From the NCBI RefSeq assembly GCF_023517775.1, contig NZ_CP082904.1:1302001-1366000 (forward strand): a DNA stretch of 64,000 bases. The letters are read 5' to 3'. Below the pieces are notes generated by a model. That model made no database searches, was not told the DNA's origin, and worked only from the letters and a program-made list of their open reading frames with translations. Both the position numbers and the translations under genes were made by a program. The DNA is from Mixta hanseatica (lineage in GTDB: Bacteria > Pseudomonadota > Gammaproteobacteria > Enterobacterales > Enterobacteriaceae). Shown here piece after piece: positions 3,478 to 38,284 of the stretch. Within the stretch, counting starts at the first letter, position 1, and each line of letters starts with the position of its first letter.

Positions 3478-4078
3478 AGGCAAAGCGCCGAAGCCGAAGA
3501 AGTGCCGTATCTGCCCTGAGAAGTTTATCCCCCGCAGCACCACCCAGACAGTTTGCTCCCCTAAATGTGCCATCCAGCTCGCTAACCAGTTATCCGAACG
3601 CAACAGAAAGCGCCAGGAGAAGCTACAGCGCGATGAATTACGCATACGCAGGGAAAAGCTCAAAACAAAATCTGACTGGTCTAAAGAGGCTCAAATTGCC
3701 GTTAATCGGTATATCTTCTGGCGCGACTATGGGAGGCCATGCATAGCCTGTGGAAGACCGCTTAACTACGGCGTTCGGGGCGGGGCAGTAGATGCAAGTC
3801 ACTACCGGTCACGCGGCTCGGCATCACATCTTCGGTACAACGTTTTCAATATCCACGCGGGCTGTGTTCGCTGCAACCGCGAGCTGTCCGGGAACCTCAT
3901 CCCGTTCCGAATAAACCTCATCGGGAAGATTGGCGCCGATCGCGTCGAAAAACTCGAACACGACAACACACCGCGCAAATTCGATATCGACTACCTGAAG
4001 CGAATGAAGGCCATCTTCACGCGCCGGGCTCGTCATTACGAAAAGCTGCGTAAACGTCAGATGGAGTGTGCAGCATGA
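3470..4078 (+). CDS. ninG: Recombination endonuclease NinG (Rap)
   Basis: 202 residues. The N-terminal CRICPEKF and CSPKC pair forms a zinc site, and the C-terminal half has CIACGRPL, then DASHYRSRG, then CVRCNREL, the His/Cys pattern of NinG/Rap. Lambda Rap is a structure-specific endonuclease that cleaves recombination intermediates (Holliday junctions, D-loops) and raises phage-plasmid recombination. Start ATG at 3470 inside GACATGG, overlapping the previous stop. Ends in an ATGA overlap with the next gene. Confidence 0.9.
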   Translation: MVKGKAPKPKKCRICPEKFIPRSTTQTVCSPKCAIQLANQLSERNRKRQEKLQRDELRIRREKLKTKSDWSKEAQIAVNRYIFWRDYGRPCIACGRPLNYGVRGGAVDASHYRSRGSASHLRYNVFNIHAGCVRCNRELSGNLIPFRINLIGKIGADRVEKLEHDNTPRKFDIDYLKRMKAIFTRRARHYEKLRKRQMECAA

Positions 4079-4212
4079 CCGAATACCTCAAAGACAAATG
4101 GCTGAAGTTGCGGCTGTTCAAAACAAGTCGGATGTTCGAGTGCAATTACCGAATCCTGCGAAACACAGCGAAGATTATGGGGGCCAAGCATGAGCTTAGA
4201 AGCAACGGTTAA
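4075..4212 (+). CDS. 45-residue phage protein between ninG and Q
   Basis: MTEYLKDKWLKLRLFKTSR to GAKHELRSNG. ATGA overlap with ninG and 23-base overlap with Q. Lambdoid phages often have a small ORF in this place. Basic, no recognised domain. Confidence 0.5.
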   Translation: MTEYLKDKWLKLRLFKTSRMFECNYRILRNTAKIMGAKHELRSNG

Positions 4213-4957
4213 ATATCATTTCCCGAAGACAGCAAGCTTTGCCGGAATGCCGCCTGCAACAGCTTCTGATTCACTTTCCGGTACTGACTACATGGCTGCT
4301 ATGGGAATGACACAAAGCCGCGCTCCGTTAGGCTACGCAGCTTTCATGGGGAAGGTTGGGGTAAGTGAGAACGACGCCGCACGCGCCGTTACTCTGTTAA
4401 CTGAATATGCGTTGAGTACCTGCGATAAGGTTGCCGCCTTACGCAAGCTTAGAAGTGATATTAAGCCAGCCGTTATGCAAACGCTCGCAACTTATGCCTA
4501 CATGGATTATTGCCGCAGCGCCGCCAGCGTCAAGCCGTGTGACTGCTGTCAGGCTAAAGGATTCATCGAGGCGGATGTGTTTACGATGAAATCCCCACTA
4601 TCTGGCGGTTATGCCAGAAACGTCAAAGAGACTGTGCGCGTGCTGTGCAAGCAGTGTGGCGGGAAAGGCGTTGTTTCAACGGCGTGTCGCGATTGCAATG
4701 GCCGTGGACGTGCAGTGATGAAAGCGGAGACTGAAAAGCAGGGCGTGCCGGTAATGGGTGACTGCAAGAGGTGCGGCGGGCGTGGGTTTGAACGCATTCC
4801 GTCTACTGAAGCGCACAATGCCGCCTGTGAAATTACCGACGTAATCAGCATCGACACATGGAAGAAGAGTTGCAAGCCGTTCTATGACCAGTTAATTGGC
4901 AAGCTGGAAATAGAGGAGTCATGGGCCAACTCGGCATTAAACAAAGTAACTTCATAG
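4190..4957 (+). CDS. Q: Late gene antitermination protein Q (lambda type)
   Basis: 255 residues, longer than lambda Q (207). The N-terminal half (ATASDSLSGTDYMAAMGMTQ, then VLxLATYAYMDYCRSAA-like) follows lambda Q closely. The middle is an expanded DnaJ-like zinc region with four CxxC-type motifs (CDCC, CKQCGG, CRDCNG, CKRCGG) where lambda has fewer, which explains the length. Q binds the qut site at the late promoter and lets RNA polymerase pass tR' into lysis and structural genes. With the upstream control region deleted, Q may no longer be transcribed from pR. Confidence 0.92.
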   Translation: MSLEATVKYHFPKTASFAGMPPATASDSLSGTDYMAAMGMTQSRAPLGYAAFMGKVGVSENDAARAVTLLTEYALSTCDKVAALRKLRSDIKPAVMQTLATYAYMDYCRSAASVKPCDCCQAKGFIEADVFTMKSPLSGGYARNVKETVRVLCKQCGGKGVVSTACRDCNGRGRAVMKAETEKQGVPVMGDCKRCGGRGFERIPSTEAHNAACEITDVISIDTWKKSCKPFYDQLIGKLEIEESWANSALNKVTS

Positions 4958-8277: not shown

Positions 8278-8715
8278 ATGGCGACCAATTCTAACGCTGG
8301 CCGCCCTTCTGATTATCTACCAGAGGTGGCTGCTGACATCTGTTCACTGCTTGCCGATGGTGAAAGCCTGCGCAAGGTATGTGAGCGCCCAGGCATGCCG
8401 AACAAGTCTACGGTCTTTCGTTGGCTTGCTCAGCATGAAGAATTTCGCGACCAATACGCGAAAGCCACAGAGACGCGCGCCGACGCAATCTTCGAAGAGA
8501 TGTTCGACATAGCCGATAACGTTGCCGAAGAGGCCGCGGCGGTAGGTAAGGCCCGTCTGCGCATCGATACTCGCAAGTGGGCTTTGGCTCGCATGAACCC
8601 GAAGAAGTACGGCGACAAAGTCAGTCAGGAAATCGACCACAAATCATCTGATGGCAGCATGACGCCAAAGCCAACCACTATCCAGCTTCTACCTGTAGAG
8701 CCAAAGCATGAGTGA
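8278..8715 (+). CDS. Terminase small subunit
   Basis: 145 residues. GRPSDYLPEVAADICSLLADGESLRKVCE and MPNKSTVFRWLAQHEEFRDQY are the helix-turn-helix of terminase small subunits of this class, followed by an oligomerisation helix rich in Ala/Glu/Asp and a short tail. It recognises the packaging start site on phage DNA. Overlaps the large-subunit start by 8 bases. Confidence 0.86.
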   Translation: MATNSNAGRPSDYLPEVAADICSLLADGESLRKVCERPGMPNKSTVFRWLAQHEEFRDQYAKATETRADAIFEEMFDIADNVAEEAAAVGKARLRIDTRKWALARMNPKKYGDKVSQEIDHKSSDGSMTPKPTTIQLLPVEPKHE

Positions 8716-9937
8716 ATCTGTCCAGCTTCCGATTCCTGCCAAACTCGCTCCGTTGTTCACTGCTACCAATAAGCGTTATCGCTGCTCACATGGCGGGCGT
8801 GGTAGCGCCAAGACGCGCACATTCGCACTGATGACTGCCGTAAAGGCATATCAGGCCATGATGAATGGTGAAAGCGGCGTAGTGCTTTGCGCTCGTGAGT
8901 TCATGAACTCGCTTGAAGAGTCGAGCATGCAGGAAGTGAAGCAGGCAATCATGTCTGTACCATGGCTGGCCGCCAATTTTGATATCGGTGAGAAATATAT
9001 CCGCACCATTGATAAAAGCGTCAGCTACGTATTCTGCGGCCTGCGCCATAACCTCGACAGCATTAAGTCGAAAGCACGCATTCTTCTGTGCTGGGTCGAT
9101 GAGGCCGAATCAGTCAGTGAAACAGCGTGGCAGAAGCTCAGCCCTACGGTTCGTGAAGAAGGCTCAGAGATTTGGGTGACATGGAACCCTGAAAGAGATG
9201 GCAGCGCCACTGACAAGCGGTTCCGCAAAGAGGCTGGTGACGACTGCATCACTGTCGAAATGAACTACACGGATAATCCATGGTTCCCCGATGTGCTGGA
9301 AGGTGAACGACAGAACGACCAGCGGCGTCTTGACCCGGCTACCTATGCATGGGTATGGGAAGGGGCTTATCTTGAAAACTCCGATAAGCAGGTTCTGGCC
9401 GGCAAATATCGTGTCGCTGAATTCTCGGATGAACTGTGGAAAGAGGCTGAGCGCTTATTCTTCGGTGCTGACTTTGGCTTCGCTAAAGACCCGAACACGC
9501 TTATCCGCGATTTCATCATCGGCAATACGCTTTATATCGAATACGAGGCATACGGTGAGGGTGTTGAACTCGATCATATGCCAGCGTTCTACGACAAAAT
9601 CCCCGGCAGCCGCGAGTGGCCTATCAAGGCTGACTCTGCGCGACCAGAAACAATCAGCTATTTGCGTAGGCAAGGATTCAATATCTCAGCCGCAAGCAAA
9701 TGGCAGGGCAGCGTAGAGGACGGTATAAGCCACCTGCGCGGTTTTGATGAAATAGTTATCCATCCCCGCTGTAAAAATGTCGCCAGAGAAGCCCGGCTGT
9801 GGTCATACAAAACCGACCGCATCACTGGAGAGGTTCTGCCGAAACTGGCAGATGGTGATGAGCACACATGGGATGCGATCCGCTACAGCCTTGACGGACA
9901 CATCAAGCGCAAATCCTCCGGCGCCATCTTCTTTTAA
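8708..9937 (+). CDS. Terminase large subunit (PBSX type)
   Basis: 409 residues. Walker A GGRGSAKT at 29-36, Walker B LLCWVDEAES at about 130, and the nuclease part opens with FFGADFGFAKDP (first Asp of the RNase H-like fold), with DGDEHTWDAIRY near the end. ATPase motor and nuclease that cuts the concatemer and drives DNA into the prohead. Start overlaps terS. Confidence 0.93.
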   Translation: MSESVQLPIPAKLAPLFTATNKRYRCSHGGRGSAKTRTFALMTAVKAYQAMMNGESGVVLCAREFMNSLEESSMQEVKQAIMSVPWLAANFDIGEKYIRTIDKSVSYVFCGLRHNLDSIKSKARILLCWVDEAESVSETAWQKLSPTVREEGSEIWVTWNPERDGSATDKRFRKEAGDDCITVEMNYTDNPWFPDVLEGERQNDQRRLDPATYAWVWEGAYLENSDKQVLAGKYRVAEFSDELWKEAERLFFGADFGFAKDPNTLIRDFIIGNTLYIEYEAYGEGVELDHMPAFYDKIPGSREWPIKADSARPETISYLRRQGFNISAASKWQGSVEDGISHLRGFDEIVIHPRCKNVAREARLWSYKTDRITGEVLPKLADGDEHTWDAIRYSLDGHIKRKSSGAIFF

Positions 9938-9946
9938 GGAGCAACA

Positions 9947-11398
9947 GTGAGTGAAAACAATAGCGAGGTTTCATTCCTCGTGAACGCCCTTGCTGATGCG
10001 ATAGGGCGGCAGCGCATGCTGTATGCCGGACAGCCTGGCAACACGAAGCGGACGAAACTTTGGGATGAGTTCGGCTACCCGGATAATCTCGAATTCGACC
10101 GTTACTACCGGGCTTATGAGCGAAACGCCGTGGCACATGCTGCGGTGCATAAGCTTCTGGATTCCTGCTGGGCTGACCGTCCAACCATCATCGATGGCGA
10201 TGAGAATCAGGAGGCGGACGAAACAAACCAGTGGGAAGCTTCAGTAACCAAGCTACTAAATCGCCACTGGCCGAAGCTGAAAGATGCTGACCGTCGAAAT
10301 CTGGTTGGCCGATATTCAGCGCTGCTGATTCAGTTTCGTGATGGCTGTCCATGGTGGGAGCCAGTTGATCGCAATGTCGTGGGGCGCCTGAAAGATAAGG
10401 CAATCGTGCGATTCATCCCTGCCTGGGAAGCGCAGGTTAAACCTGGCAATTTCGATACTGACACGCAATCTGAGACCTACGGCCAGCCAGTGAAGTACAA
10501 CTTCAACGAGCAACCAATTGGCGACGACGGGACATATGGGTCGGTGCGCAGCGTTGAGGTTCACCCTGAGCGCATCATCATTCTTAGCGAAGGCTCTGAA
10601 GACGAGAATATGCTCGCTGGCATTCCTCTGCTTCGCGCAGGCTACAACAAGCTGCTCGACCTTGAGAAGGTTTCCGGCGGTAGCGCTGAGGGCTTCCTGA
10701 AGAACGCCAGCCGTCAGCTGGGCATCGCTTTCGATAAGGAAACTGACCTCCAGACATTGATGAGTCAGGCCAAAGACGCCGGATTTAAAGATTTGGGTGA
10801 TGCGCTGAACGATAAAATCAGGCGCATGAATAGCGGCACTGACTCCGCTCTGGTTATGCAGGCTGGACAAGCCTCTGTGCTTTCGGTGGCTCCAGCTGAC
10901 CCCTCGCCAACCTGGACTGTTACAGCTAACGAATTCGCTGCCTCAATCCAGATTCCATTTACCATCTTGTTCGGTCAGCAGACCGGGCGCCTGGCATCTG
11001 ATGAGGATAAGGCTGACTGGGCTAAGCGATGTAACGGACGCCGGTTCGGGTTTATGACCTCATTCGTGAAAGCCGTAATTGAGCGAATGTGGACTGTCGG
11101 CGTCATTGATGCACCTTCATCCGGAGGGGTTACGCTGGCATGGTCTGACCTTCTGGCTCCGAGCGAGAAAGATAAGATTGCCAACATGCAGGCGCTTGCT
11201 GACGTGGCTCAGAAAACGCAACAGGCATACGGCACGCCAGCCATCGAGCCTAACGAGATTCGTGCAGCAGGTGAGCTTGAGCCATTCAAGACTGAAGAAC
11301 CTCCTAACCCGGATAATAAAACAACCAATAAGGACCCGCTGACAGATGATAAAGACAGCGAAGGTTCGAATCGGAACCCCGATAATTCCACGCAATAA
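9947..11398 (+). CDS. Portal protein (DUF1073 family)
   Basis: 483 residues, GTG start at 9947 with AAGGAG at 9936-9941. DEFGYPDNLEFDRYYRAYERNAVAHAAVHK near the N-terminus and the IQIPFTILFGQQTGRLASDEDKADW block are typical of DUF1073 portals. Forms the dodecameric DNA gate at the head vertex. Database pipelines often label this family anti-CBASS Acb1; position between terL and the head morphogenesis gene argues for portal. The C-terminus is a disordered D/N/P tail. The next gene starts inside its end (11346). Confidence 0.85.
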   Translation: MSENNSEVSFLVNALADAIGRQRMLYAGQPGNTKRTKLWDEFGYPDNLEFDRYYRAYERNAVAHAAVHKLLDSCWADRPTIIDGDENQEADETNQWEASVTKLLNRHWPKLKDADRRNLVGRYSALLIQFRDGCPWWEPVDRNVVGRLKDKAIVRFIPAWEAQVKPGNFDTDTQSETYGQPVKYNFNEQPIGDDGTYGSVRSVEVHPERIIILSEGSEDENMLAGIPLLRAGYNKLLDLEKVSGGSAEGFLKNASRQLGIAFDKETDLQTLMSQAKDAGFKDLGDALNDKIRRMNSGTDSALVMQAGQASVLSVAPADPSPTWTVTANEFAASIQIPFTILFGQQTGRLASDEDKADWAKRCNGRRFGFMTSFVKAVIERMWTVGVIDAPSSGGVTLAWSDLLAPSEKDKIANMQALADVAQKTQQAYGTPAIEPNEIRAAGELEPFKTEEPPNPDNKTTNKDPLTDDKDSEGSNRNPDNSTQ

Positions 11399-30130: not shown

Positions 30131-31561
30131 CTACTGTAATTCTATATGGATGTCTTTCTCTGCATATATATTAAAATATCTTTTTTGAGTAAGGGTGGCC
30201 TTTTCTTTAGTCATTTCTGGGATACCCATTTCAGCCTTTACTCCATAGTGTTTTAACATCACCATTCCAGACCAGTTATAAAGCGGCATGACCATCCACT
30301 TAAGGGAAGGGAATCTCTTAAATTCCATGTTAGTAGCGACGGCGGTAGATATCTGACCAGAGATATACACCTTTTTACCATCCAGCTTAGGTGGCAACGA
30401 AGATGCTATATCATAGAACACCTTATCTTCGAGCGAGCGCTGATGTTTACTTGCATTTCCATATGCAGACGAGTAAGACAAGGAGAACATTACAGGAATA
30501 ATGCATACGATTGTTGTGATTTTTTTTGATGAGAGTATGGATGCTAGGTAGCCGATAAGTAGCATAAACCCAGGCAATCCCATCATTACGCGAGGGGCAA
30601 CCACAGTTTTATCGACAAAGATAAATGGTCCAGCAATTGAGAATAGTGCCACTGCAATGCCTGAAGCAAACATAGCAAAGCCAATAATTTTGGATGGTAA
30701 AGAAAAATCAGACTTTGCCACTCTGAAAGACAGAATTATCAAGCCAACAATCGCAACTATAATAATCAGTACCCAAGCCATGTAAAGCGAGTCATTCATC
30801 AGGCTTGATGCGATATTCCAGAATCTTTCAAAGTTGTAAAACAGGCTTTTAGCCGGATCATCAGCTTTTAATACAAGATCTGAGTGAACATTTTTCGACA
30901 AGAAGAATGGGGTCACACCCTTCATGTAGATTATCATCCCAATAATTGCGCTGGCCGCTCTTTCGACAGACATTCGTAATGCATCTATTCCGTTTCCCCA
31001 ACTGTAAAGTGCGAAAGTTATTTCTATGGCGCACAAAGATAGGAACACATTTATTGTTGCTTGATAGAGACTCAAGGCAAGCACAAGGCATACAGCACCA
31101 AATAGCACCCTAAATGCCAACTTAAATGATGCAGCCATTTTAGAGTAAGGCAATACGGCAAGGAAAACTCCAAGCATCATGGGGAAGGAGTCAAAGTGAT
31201 AAGAAAGATTTTGAAGGAAGAACGGGCTTAATGAAAATAAAGAAAAAACTACGCCAGATGCGATGCCACGATTAATCGCAAACCGGCAATAAAGCATTAC
31301 TGACGAAGCTCCAAGCAATACGCCAGCCAGTATCAGAGATAATGGGAAAGAATCAACAACGAATCCTGAACCAAACCCAAGTGCCATGACAGCAACGTCA
31401 GACAGAGGGCGACCAAGTGCTCCCCAGTACGCCTCACCATTTGCCGTTCTAAGTATATCATCCTGATATAAAACGCCTGAAAGCATGATCGGCAACACAA
31501 AGAGTGCTGTAGTCAAAACAATTACCCAGCACCCGCTATCAAATTTATTCAACTTCAACAT
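30131..31561 (-). CDS. O-antigen glucosyltransferase (GtrII-like, Gtr specificity protein)
   Basis: 476 residues, about 11 membrane segments. The first periplasmic loop has [24 protein letters not shown], which is the GtrII (Glucos_trans_II) signature with the acidic pair. It moves glucose from undecaprenyl-phosphate-glucose to O-antigen in the periplasm, changing serotype. Starts inside the end of gtrB (17 bases overlap). Confidence 0.85.
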
Positions 31562-32474
31562 TTTTCTTCCTTTGCTTAAGAATAAATCTCGGTCGCTGCT
31601 TGGACTCTAAATAAATCCTGCCGATGTACTCACCAAGAACACCAATCCCAATCAGTTGAACCCCGCCAAGGAACAGGATGGAGACAAGCAGAGAAGGATA
31701 CCCGCGCACAGCATTACCGAATGCTAGCGTATCTACAATCATCCACGCACCGTAGATAAATGCTATGCCAGCTACGATGAGACCGATGTACGTCCATACG
31801 CGCAGAGGGAATGTTGAGAAGCTTGTTATCCCCTCAAGGGCAAGGTTCCACAGTTTCCACCCGTTGAATTTTGTATTACCGGCAACGCGTTCCGCACGGG
31901 CGTATTCGACAACATCAGTACGACCGCCAACCCAGCTCAGGATGCCTTTCATGAACAGGTTGCGCTCTGGCAGCAGCCTGATGTTGTCCACCACTTCCCG
32001 AGACATGAGGCGGAAATCACCTACGTTCTCTTCAATCTTCGGGTTGCTGATTTTGTTGTGCAGCTTATAGAACATTTCAGCGCTCTTGCGCTTCAGGCGG
32101 CCATCCGTAGAACGGTCCGTGCGTTTCGCCAGAACGACATCGGCTCCTTCCTGCCATTTGGCTATCAGCTGCGGAATCACTTCAATCGGGTCCTGCAGAT
32201 CAACGTCGATGGGAATGACCGCGTCTCCGGTGGCATGCTCAAGCCCAGCGAACAGCGCCGGCTCTTTACCAAAGTTACGCGTGAAAGACAGCGGCTTAAC
32301 GAGAGGATCAGACACGGCCAGCGCGTTGATAATGCTCTCTGTGCTGTCTTTACTGCCGTCATTAATAAAGACAATTTCCACTTCATACTGAGGTAGTTCT
32401 TTGCGAACGGCCTGATAAAAGATAGGTATGGCGTCCTCTTCATTGAACACCGGAACCACGAGAGATATTTTCAT
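31545..32474 (-). CDS. gtrB: Bactoprenol glucosyltransferase GtrB
   Basis: 309 residues. GT2 fold: [49 protein letters not shown] and two C-terminal membrane helices (about 235-255 and 268-288). Makes undecaprenyl-phosphate glucose from UDP-glucose. ATGA-type overlap with gtrA. Less AT-rich than the two transferase genes that follow, as usual in gtr clusters: gtrAB conserved, gtr specificity genes variable. Confidence 0.93.
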
Positions 32475-32830
32475 TTCGCATCCCTGAAAACGATGAATCG
32501 CGAGTAAAAGAAGCCCGTCACAAGGCTGATTGCTGAGAACAGGATAAGAGTTACGATCGGGTTAAGCTCAAGGCGGTCACTCATTGCACCAACTGATGCG
32601 GCCATAGCGCCCATGAAAGCAACATAAAGGATATAGCGCCCGGGCGTTACCCGACTGCCGAAGGTGTAGCGAGCATTAACGCAGAACGAGAAGGTGACAG
32701 CGATGATGAAGGCTATGAGGTTAGCAATGCTCTGGCTGGCACCCGCCACCCAGCACGCGCCAAAAACTATCCAGTGTATAGCCGTGTTCAGAACACCCAC
32801 CGACACATATTTAGAGAACAACCTGAGCAT
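32471..32830 (-). CDS. gtrA: Bactoprenol-linked glucose flippase GtrA
   Basis: 119 residues with four membrane helices ([77 protein letters not shown]). Flips undecaprenyl-phosphate glucose to the periplasm. First gene of the operon; 170 bases upstream to the att site with no other gene. Confidence 0.92.
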
Positions 32831-33020
32831 ATGTAACCAATCCTTATGAGAGTTGTCTGATCTTAACGGCGGTCACACAGAAGGCAAGAGAGAGGTGAGA
32901 CAAATGTGGGACATGCAGGGCTTTGTGACCTTTGCCAAAGCTTTGCATGTTTTCGCATCGTGGGACGTGTGAGCGCGGCAGAATGCGGTAAGTTATTGTG
33001 TTAAAAGGTGATTCTAGGAA

Positions 33021-33065
33021 CTTCTAAGCCGTAGGTCACAGGTTCGAATCCTGTAGGGCGTGCCA
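33021..33065 (+). other. Attachment core: 3' part of tRNA-Arg(UCU), attR-type of the first prophage
   Basis: CTTCTAAG (anticodon loop with TCT), GGTTCGAATCC (T arm) and AGGGCGTGCCA (acceptor with CCA) are the 3' 45 bases of a tRNA-Arg(UCU)-type gene (argU). The preceding bases do not form a 5' tRNA half, so this is an att duplicate, not a gene. The intact tRNA should lie to the left outside the window. Order gtrA - att - int is that of P22-type attP, meaning a second int-first element follows. Confidence 0.85.
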
Positions 33066-33080
33066 TTAAATATCAATTAG

Positions 33081-33616
33081 TTACGCAATCCGCAAACCTA
33101 CCTGATTTCCTCCTTGTGTCGTATTTGTGTCGTTGTCACCTAAAAGTGAGTCAATTTTGCGCGCATGCTCCGTTAAGTGGTTAGGGGCGAGGTGAGCATA
33201 TCGACGCACCATTTCTATGCTTTCCCAGCCACCCATTTCCTGCAGCGCCGACAACGGAACTCCTGACTGAATGAGCCAGCTTGCCCAGGTGTGTCGCAAG
33301 TCGTGAAACCGGAAGTCCTCAATACCTGCCCGCTTGAGTCCGATCCGCCACGCTGTGTTATCATCACACCGCATCTTCCTGACCGCCGGAGTCTTGGTTC
33401 CGTCAGGCCGGGTTGCCTCTTTGGTGTGGACGAATACCCATCGCGAATGTTTCCCGATTTGCTCCTTTAACACCCTGCATGCCGTATCATTCAGAGCCAC
33501 GCCAATAGACTTGCCCGCTTTGGCGTTCTCGGGGTTTATCCATGCGACCTTTCTTTGCATATCGACCTGCGTCCATTTAAGGTCGAGGATGTTGCTGCGC
33601 CGTAGTCCGGTAGTCC
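33081..33616 (-). pseudogene. Tyrosine integrase, N-terminally truncated
   Basis: The minus frame is open from the junction near 33616 to 33081. It begins [14 protein letters not shown] (catalytic Arg), and continues with [15 protein letters not shown] (HxxR) and [15 protein letters not shown] (catalytic Tyr). The SAM-like N-terminal domain and about half the protein are missing; in their place, on the other strand, a DUF927 gene starts abruptly. The first internal ATG (33560) would remove the catalytic Arg. Likely the integrase of the second, decayed prophage. Non-functional. Confidence 0.82.
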
Positions 33617-34707
33617 ACTTCTATGAGCAATCGAGCGCCGGCAAAACTACGACCGCGAATGTCGCCAGTAGTCTCTACGGCAACCCTGACCAGCTGCGAC
33701 TGACATGGTACGGCACCGCTCTAGGGCTGGCTAATGAAGCTGCCGCCCACAATGATGCGCTGATGCCGCTGGATGAAGTGGGGCAAGGCGCTGATCCAGT
33801 TAGCGTCTCGCAGTCAGCTTATGCGCTTTTTAACGGCGTAGGGAAACTTCAGGGAGTCAAAGAAGGCGGTAACCGTGATCTGAAACGCTGGCGCACAGTG
33901 GCGATCAGCACCGGCGAGATGGATTTAGAAACCTTCATCGCTATGGCGGGTCGCAAAGCGAAGGCCGGGCAGTTGGTCAGGCTGCTGAATATCCTACTGA
34001 GTAAGGCTGTGAGATTCCACCAGCACGAGAACGGCAAGCAGCACGCCGATGCGCTGAAAGACGCTTATCAGAATCATCACGGGGCAGCAGGACGTGAATG
34101 GATCAAATGGTTAGCAGGCAATCAGCAACAGGCTACTGAGGCTGTCAGAGAAGCGGAGGCGCGCTGGCGAAGTCTTATCCCGGCAGAATACGGCGAGCAG
34201 GTACACCGCGTGGGCGCACGCTTTGCCATTCTTGAGGCTGCGTTACTGCTGGGCCGCGTTATCAATGGATGGGACGAGCAGACGTGCCGCGACGCCGTTC
34301 AGCACAGCTATGACGCCTGGGTGAGAGAGTTTGGTACCGGCAACAAAGAACATCAGCAGATCATCGCCCAGTGTGAAGCGTTTCTGAACGCCAATGGCTA
34401 CAGCCGGTTTGCCCCTTTCCCGTATGACCCTCAGTCGATGCCAATCCGTGAGATGGCTGGCTATCGCGCCAGCGGCAACCATGACGATGATCCGATCGTC
34501 TTTTACACCTTCCCGGCAACGTTCGAGCAAGAGATAGCCAGTGGATTCAATCCCAAGCAGTTCGCCCGGGTGCTGGCAGAGAGCGGCATGCTGACACCAC
34601 CGACCAGCGGCAGAGGCTTCCAGCGTAAGTCGCCCAGGATTAACAAGCGTCAGTACAACGTCTACGTGATCCAGTACCGACCAGAGGATGAGGCACTGGA
34701 AGAGTAA
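33617..34707 (+). pseudogene. DUF927 helicase-like protein, N-terminally truncated
   Basis: Open from [18 protein letters not shown] (Walker A) through NDALMPLDEVGQGADP (Walker B-like) and WRTVAISTGEMDLETFI to IQYRPEDEALEE. This is the C-terminal part of a DUF927 (phage/plasmid replication ATPase, distant from P4 alpha and primase-helicases). The N-terminal half is lost at a junction with the integrase; upstream codons in this frame are antisense integrase DNA. No start or ribosome site belongs to it. Confidence 0.82.
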
Positions 34708-34708
34708 G

Positions 34709-34722
34709 CCTCACATGTGAGG
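34709..34722. repeat. 14-bp perfect palindrome after DUF927 gene
   Basis: CCTCACATGTGAGG, 1 base after the DUF927 stop, followed by ATTTTAG. Could be a weak terminator or an operator at the edge of the repeat array that begins nine bases further on. Confidence 0.5.
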
Positions 34723-34730
34723 ATTTTAGT

Positions 34731-34841
34731 GTTGGTTCAGTTAGTTCAGTTGGTTCAATCTTTTATTATCTTTGATTTATAAGGAAATTAAATTCAAAAG
34801 TGAACCAACACTGAACCAACAAAGGGCTGTTTTGAACCAAC
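34731..34841. repeat. Iteron-like array of TTGGTTCA repeats in two orientations
   Basis: Three tandem 9-mers GTTGGTTCA / GTTAGTTCA / GTTGGTTCA (34731-34757), a 43-base AT-rich segment, then three inverted copies TGAACCAAC at 34801, 34812 and 34833, spaced 11 and 21 bases (one and two helical turns). No gene is present. Repeats flanking an AT-rich core beside a replication ATPase gene look like a replication origin (as in P4-type crr/ori), though a regulatory region for the next gene or an RNA hairpin is also possible. Confidence 0.6.
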
Positions 34842-34880
34842 ATACTCAGCGTAAAAACATTATTTTTCAGGTCGGCGCAC

Positions 34881-35190
34881 ATGGTAAGTGACAAAAAAAG
34901 CAGAAGAACTTGAAGCGAAAGGTTTGCACAGAAGAGCAGCCTCTCGCTGGCTGGAGGTGTTCGACAATTGCGACACAGAAGTCGGGCGGGAGTGGATCAG
35001 ATCCCGCCGCAATCAGTGTCTGGCGAAGCGTGTTCGCCCTGCTGTGCTTATTGACACCTTTGGCGATGTCACCAGAGCCGCAGGCGACACACAGCGCAGA
35101 ATGGGGTTAGCCAAACCGGACGGCGAGGCCTTCAGGTTGAAAGATGAAGTGAGTTATCAATCAAGGAAGGTCGGAAAACAAAGAAAGTAA
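34881..35190 (+). pseudogene. PerC-family transcription regulator with probable frameshift near the start
   Basis: ELEAKGLHRRAASRWLEVFDNC and EWIRSRRNQCL form the PerC signature (AARRW...RRNxC). PerC proteins act as transcription activators in enteropathogens and phages. ATG at 34881 reads MVSDKK, the normal family start, then meets an A7 run (34892-34898) and shifts into a stop; with A6 it would continue in the frame of the signature. A GTG at 34888 can start the signature frame directly, so the gene may still be made. The C-terminus is ordinary (RKVGKQRK). Confidence 0.72.
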
Positions 35191-35256: not shown

Positions 35257-35613
35257 ATGAAAAAGGTTTTGGCAGTGGCGCTTGGGGCGTTGTTACTTTC
35301 AGGATGTACTGTGCGTGTTGCTGATATGACTGTCGCAAGCACCAAAAACTACAATTTGAACGCAGCTAAGTTTGAGAAAGGTGCTCGCGTGACCGGCGAA
35401 GATAAAGCGCCAATCGTAATTTTCCCTTTAGGTATTCCGAACGTTAAAACGGCTATGGATCACGCTATTGAGAAAGATAAGTGTGCGGTTGGCTTGAGCG
35501 ATGTGGTTATCTACCAGTTAAACCACGCCTTCCTCTTCGGCACATACGGTTTCCGTGTTGAGGGTACGCAAATTATCGACAAATCACAGATGGGATGTGA
35601 AAACCACATCTGA
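35257..35613 (+). CDS. Phage lipoprotein
   Basis: 118 residues. Signal MKKVLAVALGALLLSGC (lipobox LLSGC, Cys 17), mature part with two more Cys (DKCAVGLSD, QMGCENH) that may pair. Own terminator behind. Likely moron of the second prophage affecting the outer membrane. Unrecognised family. Confidence 0.7.
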   Translation: MKKVLAVALGALLLSGCTVRVADMTVASTKNYNLNAAKFEKGARVTGEDKAPIVIFPLGIPNVKTAMDHAIEKDKCAVGLSDVVIYQLNHAFLFGTYGFRVEGTQIIDKSQMGCENHI

Positions 35614-35692: not shown

Positions 35693-35764
35693 TGTAGTGG
35701 TTTACTGAATTTGGCCACCTGAACAGAGGTGATATGCTCACCTCAGAACATTACAGGTGCCTCA

Positions 35765-36933
<1,169 letters not shown>

Positions 36934-37652: not shown

Positions 37653-38284
37653 TCCGTTACCCAACCTGAGCCTTTATCCCGACACGCCTCATTAATTGCC
37701 AGTCTTTTTTTACTCGGCACTGTTGCCCGGTACTTGCAGGTCGGGATGGATCTTGTGATAGCCATAAACGTAACCCGACTCTAGCCAGAACGGCTTGATC
37801 TGCCCCGTCAGCTTCAGGTCAGCATAATGCCGTCGTGAATGCGGCTGCTGAAGCCAGGCGTAAAACCCACCCGGATCAACATCGGGCACCCAACAGAGCA
37901 GGCGAACAGGCCAGCAACGGTTGTTGTCACGGATAAAGGCGTACCTCAGTCGGACAGCTTTGCGAAGCGCCGCGGTTTTTTTAATATGTCCCGTTTGTCA
38001 GTAACCTGCTTCAGCTCTTTCTGGATCTGTCGGATCTTAGCCTGAGCATCTGACTGGATTTTATTGGTGTAGAGGCCTGGTGCATATGCTTTTATCCAGG
38101 CATAAAAACTCTGGGTGGTAATACCGAGACGTGTTGCAACGCTGGAAACAGAATGACTGCGATCAACAACCTGTTTGACCGCTTCAATTTTAAACTCTTC
38201 GGGATAACGCTTACCGCTCATGGGCACCTCTCTATAAGCCATTTTAAATGACTCTGAGGTGCCTGTTAAATCCGTGGCGATTCA
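37653..38284 (-). mobile_element. Decayed IS3-family (IS51-group-like) element
   Basis: Right end has the repeat TGAATCGCCACGGATTT (read on the minus strand from 38284). orfA (37946-38221) starts MSGKRYPEEFKIEAVKQVV and is nearly whole. The orfB part is broken and has internal deletions: pieces reading YAWLQQPHSRRHYADLKLTG, QIKPFWLESGYVYGY and GSGWVTDIT remain in changing frames. The left end is fused to the tape measure fragment. Not able to move by itself. Confidence 0.8.
37946..38221 (-). pseudogene. IS3-family OrfA in decayed element
   Basis: 91 residues from the ATG at 38221. HTH with RSHSVSSVATRLGITTQSFYAWIK and a coiled coil ending TDKRDILKK, then a different end. The orfB partner is broken. 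Confidence 0.7.

Follow-up and report, generated by a model that had tools for sequence, protein, structure and literature searches.

The window analysed here, a 64,000-nt stretch of the Mixta hanseatica genome, contains an array of six 9-bp repeats (iterons) at positions 34731-34841, immediately downstream of the remains of a gene for a DUF927 initiator-helicase (Rep). The array is real, and five of its six copies are perfect. Very probably it is an origin of replication that belonged to a Gram-negative phage-inducible chromosomal island (PICI) of the DUF927 (SaPIbov1-Rep-like) type and is orphaned in this genome. Such islands are phage satellites, small elements that hitch-hike on phages. 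The features of the array and of the DNA between it and the stop codon are:

34709..34722, no strand: 14-bp palindrome CCTCACATGTGAGG, between the DUF927 stop codon and iteron 1
34731..34739, plus strand: iteron 1, GTTGGTTCA
34740..34748, plus strand: iteron 2, GTTAGTTCA, with one mismatch; the middle copy is likewise mismatched once in several intact relatives
34749..34757, plus strand: iteron 3, GTTGGTTCA
34758..34800, no strand: AT-rich core, presumed melting region
34772..34784, plus strand: core motif TTGATTTATAAGG, which recurs in relatives of several iteron words, not in all
34801..34809, minus strand: iteron 4, inverted TGAACCAAC
34812..34820, minus strand: iteron 5, inverted TGAACCAAC, 11 bp after iteron 4
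34833..34841, minus strand: iteron 6, inverted TGAACCAAC, 21 bp after iteron 5

The first iteron begins 23 bp past the DUF927 stop codon (open reading frame, ORF, end at 34707), and the 40 bp at 34761-34800 are 85% A+T. A preliminary description of this DNA had listed iterons, an AT-rich spacer, inverted copies at one- and two-turn spacing and a palindrome, and the coordinates bear out all of these. A spacing-only search that is blind to sequence gives the array a score of 39 of 40, the highest in the 64 kb, whereas none of five base-shuffled 64-kb sequences exceeds 0.66 of the maximum. Thus the array is not a chance arrangement. The pattern is found at one place only in the 4.44-Mb genome, and the exact pattern is present in 3 of 394 genomes of the order (own genome included), each time directly past a DUF927 gene.

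Arrays behind the DUF927 genes of relatives, which the preliminary description had proposed as a check, were scored in 167 DUF927 loci from annotated records, GTDB genomes, IMG/VR contigs and an order-wide search; the last gave 69 matches, of which 30 entered the set. Loci that lacked a stop codon or had less than 250 bp of downstream DNA had been left out beforehand, as had L008 and L009, the two copies from the own genome. An 8-mer repeated at least four times in the 450 bp past the stop codon, above the maximum of 60 shuffles, is present in 129 of the 167 loci (the window included). Control windows show three repeats at most in 148 upstream and 167 in-gene cases, and a single one of 135 far-downstream windows reaches four. 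Thirty-eight stretches from other genomes include many arrays with other iteron sequences (words) and some stretches without an array.

Geometry and words were compared in 95 unique loci, obtained from 113 close-family array loci after dropping identical rows. The spacing is 9 bp between forward copies (125 steps; a copy is skipped in 18 steps) and 11 and 21 bp between inverted copies. The step from the last forward to the first inverted copy is 53 bp in 55 of these loci and 62-65 bp in 28. The cores average 77% A+T, as against 56% in the 450 bp downstream. A short form like that of the window is present in 43 loci, and a long form with a second set in 52. Part of the relatives, with several iteron words, share a core motif of roughly TTGnTTTATAAGG, a possible melting element; TTTATA is found in 47 cores and TTTATAAGG in 23. 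The exact palindrome CCTCACATGTGAGG is not general among relatives, being the same in L053 and matching at 13 of 14 positions in L016. CACATG or CATGTG is found within 30 bp of the stop codon in 40 loci.

Twelve words are found in the 95 loci: GTTGGTTCA in 72, GTTGTCTCA in 7, ACGGGTTAT in 4, CTTATCCCA in 3, GTGGGTTAC in 2 and seven others once each, with the register of ACGGGTTAT and GTGGGTTAC (six loci) set by hand from the spacing. Intact relatives have words that include GTTGGTTCA, GTTGTCTCA, ACGGGTTAT and GTTGTCCCA. Where the word is new, most copies in the array share it and the spacing is unchanged. Ten genomes have at least two DUF927 copies, and four of them (G248, G126, G286 and G377) have two arrays of at least four copies. 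The co-resident words differ in all four, which is a hint only, as it was compared against no null. A further genome, G123, has one clear array and a weak second array with the same word.

The intact relatives inspected display the layout of a PICI, i.e., int, AlpA, an Icd-like gene, Rep and the array, with int, AlpA and Rep in one direction, and an AlpA homologue is present in 78 of the 95 unique array loci within the DNA examined. This layout and the AlpA homologues speak against the origin being that of a phage, as had been proposed. A 12.15-kb circle is found beside an integrated copy. The array, its geometry, the location rule, the homology, the co-variation described below and the circle are computed results. 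The earlier proposal of a candidate origin next to an initiator-helicase gene is backed by the relatives, the circle, the homology to SaPIbov1 Rep and the co-variation of the word with the Rep C-terminal domain.

Origins of related type are on record. PMC6092414 (Fillol-Salom 2018) places the PICI origin 3′ of rep, as AT-rich DNA between two sets of iterons, and reports a plasmid test of the EcCICFT073 origin; PMC10111431 includes DUF927 in the PICI 'Primase' family, for which the origin is downstream. PMC7581432 describes SaPIbov1 Rep as a DUF927-related initiator and relates Cch, which has DUF927, to it; the C-terminal domain of SaPI Rep is stated there to recognise the iterons, which lie downstream. 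The preliminary remark that no origin had been described for DUF927 phages is thus not supported.

The EcCICFT073 origin is like that of the window in its position directly 3′ of rep, its two iteron sets around an AT-rich stretch and the int/AlpA/Rep layout. However the CFT073 element, taken as EcCICFT073 by layout, has a D5_N/DUF5906 Rep and GGTAGACA-type repeats, whereas DUF927, GTTGGTTCA and a remnant copy are found here. The GGTAGACA-type repeats after its Rep gene (L010, 8997-9240) were missed by the DUF927 spacing search. The helicase core of the DUF927 Rep is homologous to that of SaPIbov1-type (DUF927) initiators; the comparison with SaPIbov1 was made by Rep protein. The elements described here differ from SaPIbov1 Rep and its origin (8TCH) in that they belong to Enterobacterales and have a zinc-ribbon/Toprim front end in three of four relatives scanned (L003 is without it, and it is lost in the window). 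This front end is shared with P4 alpha. Of the likeness to P4 that had been noted earlier, the zinc-ribbon and Toprim domains and the paired iterons of crr just 3′ of alpha stand, but the alpha helicase is of D5 type, in place of which DUF927 is found here, and P4 has separate ori and crr. The SCCmec Cch helicase (5DGK) differs in coming from a staphylococcal cassette chromosome (SCC) element, a class that carries serine recombinases.

Several observations weigh against the assignment to a PICI origin. The 12.15-kb circle could have been excised and yet not replicate. The literature searched yielded no binding or replication test for Gram-negative origins of the DUF927 type, and the element of the published plasmid test is apparently D5_N/DUF5906, not DUF927, the CFT073 element having been assigned by layout. 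In addition, 38 of the 167 loci are without an above-chance array in the first 450 bp. Two sister clades, of 8 and 6 loci, account for fourteen of these, and in 12 of the 14 the array is far upstream. L031, L043 and L045 show no array in the DNA examined. In a second set of 96 further loci, assembled for the relocated clades and many on the same or overlapping contigs, the spacing search gave shuffle-like scores, i.e., no array, in 12. The best spacing match of this set lies at most 120 bp past the gene in 60 loci, and a score of at least 0.78 is found elsewhere in 24. Among the other exceptions of the first set, the array lies past an early stop codon in three (L047, L056 and L061), the arrays of L038 and L058 are decayed, that of L059 is weak, and 15 are distant DUF927 proteins.

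The position immediately 3′ of the initiator gene, which characterizes a PICI origin, is found in the window and is departed from in the two sister clades. In these clades (the L130-L139 clade, e.g., L182 near 1227, and L175, L176, L179 and L180) the arrays are far upstream of DUF927, keep the same spacing and have the words GTCGGTTCA and GTCGGTTA-like. In three of the four places inspected they start 33-39 bp past an integrase-like gene, which is Pfam-confirmed in one of the three; in the fourth place this gene was out of view. As judged from these sequences, the origin has moved within the element.

Trees of Rep segments, from which relocated, decayed and distant loci were excluded, were used to count changes of word. 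The C-terminal-domain tree (95 loci) accommodates the words with 11 changes, the smallest number possible for 12 words, and still with 11 when the last 41 residues are removed. The helicase tree needs 19 (its first half 19, its second half 17), and shuffled word labels need 22-23. Since seven of the 12 words occur once, the helicase-tree excess of 8 stems from the five words with at least two rows. For the 7 words of the 47 loci that have ssb downstream, the C-terminal domain needs 6 changes, which is the minimum, the preceding 139 columns 8, the helicase 9 and ssb 10. Therefore the domain and the origin co-change more closely than the origin does with either neighbour. In a ranking that ignores kinship, 16 of the 22 best word-separating columns lie in the last 36 residues. 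The co-variation supports a C-terminal domain that would bind the iterons.

The alternative that survives best is that the domain and the word are co-inherited as neighbours and moved together by recombination, with no recognition involved. About 25 bp separate the end of the domain-coding DNA from the origin, a block of Rep end and origin is present three times in Yersinia pekkanenii and so moves as a block, and the within-gene counts drop toward the 3′ end (19, 17, 11), as linkage would also predict. However ssb, on the far side of the origin, tracks the word worse (10 versus 6 changes), a new word is carried by most copies of an array on constant spacing, and the arrays of two clades keep their spacing kilobases away from the domain-coding DNA. 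Linkage alone is thus considered unlikely, although it may form part of the co-variation.

A comparable case is described in PMC8263062, which reports that PLE satellites swap origin and initiator domain as a module under attack by the ICP1 nuclease Odn. The PLE RepA/ori system resembles the DUF927 satellites in that the satellite origin co-varies with the DNA-binding domain and is swapped as a module; it differs in its RepA_N initiator and its three ~30-bp semi-palindromic iterons (PMC8263062). A phage-encoded Odn-like nuclease with the DUF927 Rep C-terminal domain was sought by a search with that domain, which covered proteins up to about 236 aa. It gave 79 proteins of 76-233 aa that look like gene fragments, judged from the names and lengths of all 79 and from seven inspected sequences. 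The sole HNH-named match, P0059, is a recombinant ORF in the triplicated Yersinia pekkanenii segment, and no Odn-like partner for DUF927 PICIs was found in this one size-limited search. In that locus (L033), a segment running from the Rep C-terminal end through the origin into the start of the next gene is present in three copies, at 4024-4716, 8479-9298 and 9660-10509, and one segment junction creates the chimeric ORF P0059. Its HNH label is the source name; a Pfam scan found no match above the cut-off, and the search table had assigned PF26362.

The genes on either side of the array are:

33081..33560, minus strand: C-terminal part of a tyrosine integrase gene (Phage_integrase), adjoining gtrA as in P22-like phages
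33616..34707, plus strand: 3′ part of the TOPRIM-DUF927 initiator (Rep) gene; the DNA match to L025 and L053 starts at 33616
34888..35190, plus strand: PerC-like regulator gene of the satellite, accessory and outside the origin, starting 46 bp past the last iteron
35257..35613, plus strand: small ORF without a Pfam match; 354 of 357 bases are identical in Pantoea septica L025

A DUF927 gene had been placed before the array and is indeed there, but not whole: ORF 33334-34707 keeps only positions 190-282 of 284 of the Pfam DUF927 profile and the C-terminal part. The fragment starts at the Walker A region, and about 555 N-terminal residues of Rep are missing. A structure model of the fragment reaches a mean pLDDT of 58.8, with the helicase part poorly modelled. 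The integrase fragment is joined to the Rep gene near 33605-33616, which is the truncation junction. From there to 35693 (array, PerC gene and one small ORF) the DNA is 93.2% identical to Pantoea septica L025; the small ORF is absent from the L053 stretch that was compared. The element in the window keeps only the Rep end, the PerC gene and one ORF. To the left, P22-like gtr genes and the integrase fragment (30131-33560), in phage-form order with gtrA beside int, are fused to the satellite remnant, and the gtrA-int region is 68-71% identical to Cronobacter phage ENT47670 and P22. To the right the remnant is bounded by transposase genes (HTH_Tnp_1, rve) at 35729-36933 and 37946-38242, presumably of IS3 type.

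Because Rep is without its ~555 N-terminal residues and is fused to a prophage integrase fragment, the window origin is an orphan and should be silent. The array might instead still be used, e.g., as a decoy or as an extra start point for the Rep of an incoming related satellite. Its six sites are intact, with 54 of 54 iteron bases as in L025. However the family search found no second or full DUF927 gene in the genome, and intact sites need no selection because the truncation may be recent; continued use is thus given little credence.

The inverted repeats might also act as RNA, in a 3′ untranslated-region hairpin or a terminator of the DUF927 transcript, as the preliminary description had allowed. 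The fold has a z of -5.3 versus dinucleotide shuffles, none of 200 being as stable. However, when only the DNA outside the six iterons is shuffled, folds that are at least as good arise in 67 of 500 sequences, and in 124 of 500 if the palindrome is left out, so the repeats by themselves largely account for the strength of the hairpin. The forward (9, 9) and inverted (11, 21) spacings do not match as sides of a stem, and in the sister clades the array is far upstream of the gene. This explanation is very unlikely. Least probable of all is an operator array for the PerC-like regulator or AlpA, serving regulation and not replication: the PerC gene is near in the window and AlpA homologues are frequent among the array loci, but PerC, whose binding had been raised earlier, is present in no more than 23 of the 90 unique array loci for which 4 kb or more of downstream DNA was examined, and the word tracks the Rep C-terminal domain (AlpA was not compared with the word).

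For a PICI origin, we infer binding, melting and helicase loading at the intact counterparts and silence of the remnant. The Rep C-terminal domain, with its predicted likeness to the DNA-binding protein TcpK (a winged helix), would read the 9-bp iterons on both sides of the core. Ring helicases would then load at the iterons and melt the AT-rich core, and the Toprim front end would prime. The remnant origin would stay silent as long as no related satellite brings in a matching Rep.

The window feature is a new, decayed example of a known origin type; an unannotated array is now assigned to a known replicon type. The co-variation of word and C-terminal domain in DUF927 PICIs is not described in the titles and abstract beginnings of the literature searched (subscription papers lay outside it), and no earlier description of word switching on a fixed spacing, or of relocation behind int, was seen there. 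The spacing rule finds such origins regardless of the repeat sequence. We lean towards a view in which the enterobacterial DUF927 satellites form many origin-specificity groups, like plasmid incompatibility groups: the word would be exchanged together with the Rep C-terminal domain, above all the last ~35 residues of the domain, as a matched pair on one spacing scaffold, and the origin can leave rep and settle behind int. If this is true, the selection would come from co-resident satellites or from origin-targeting phage weapons, as for PLE and Odn. Matched change of word and domain would then recast both the sharing of cells by satellites and their shared vulnerability to anti-satellite weapons as a matrix of protein-DNA binding.
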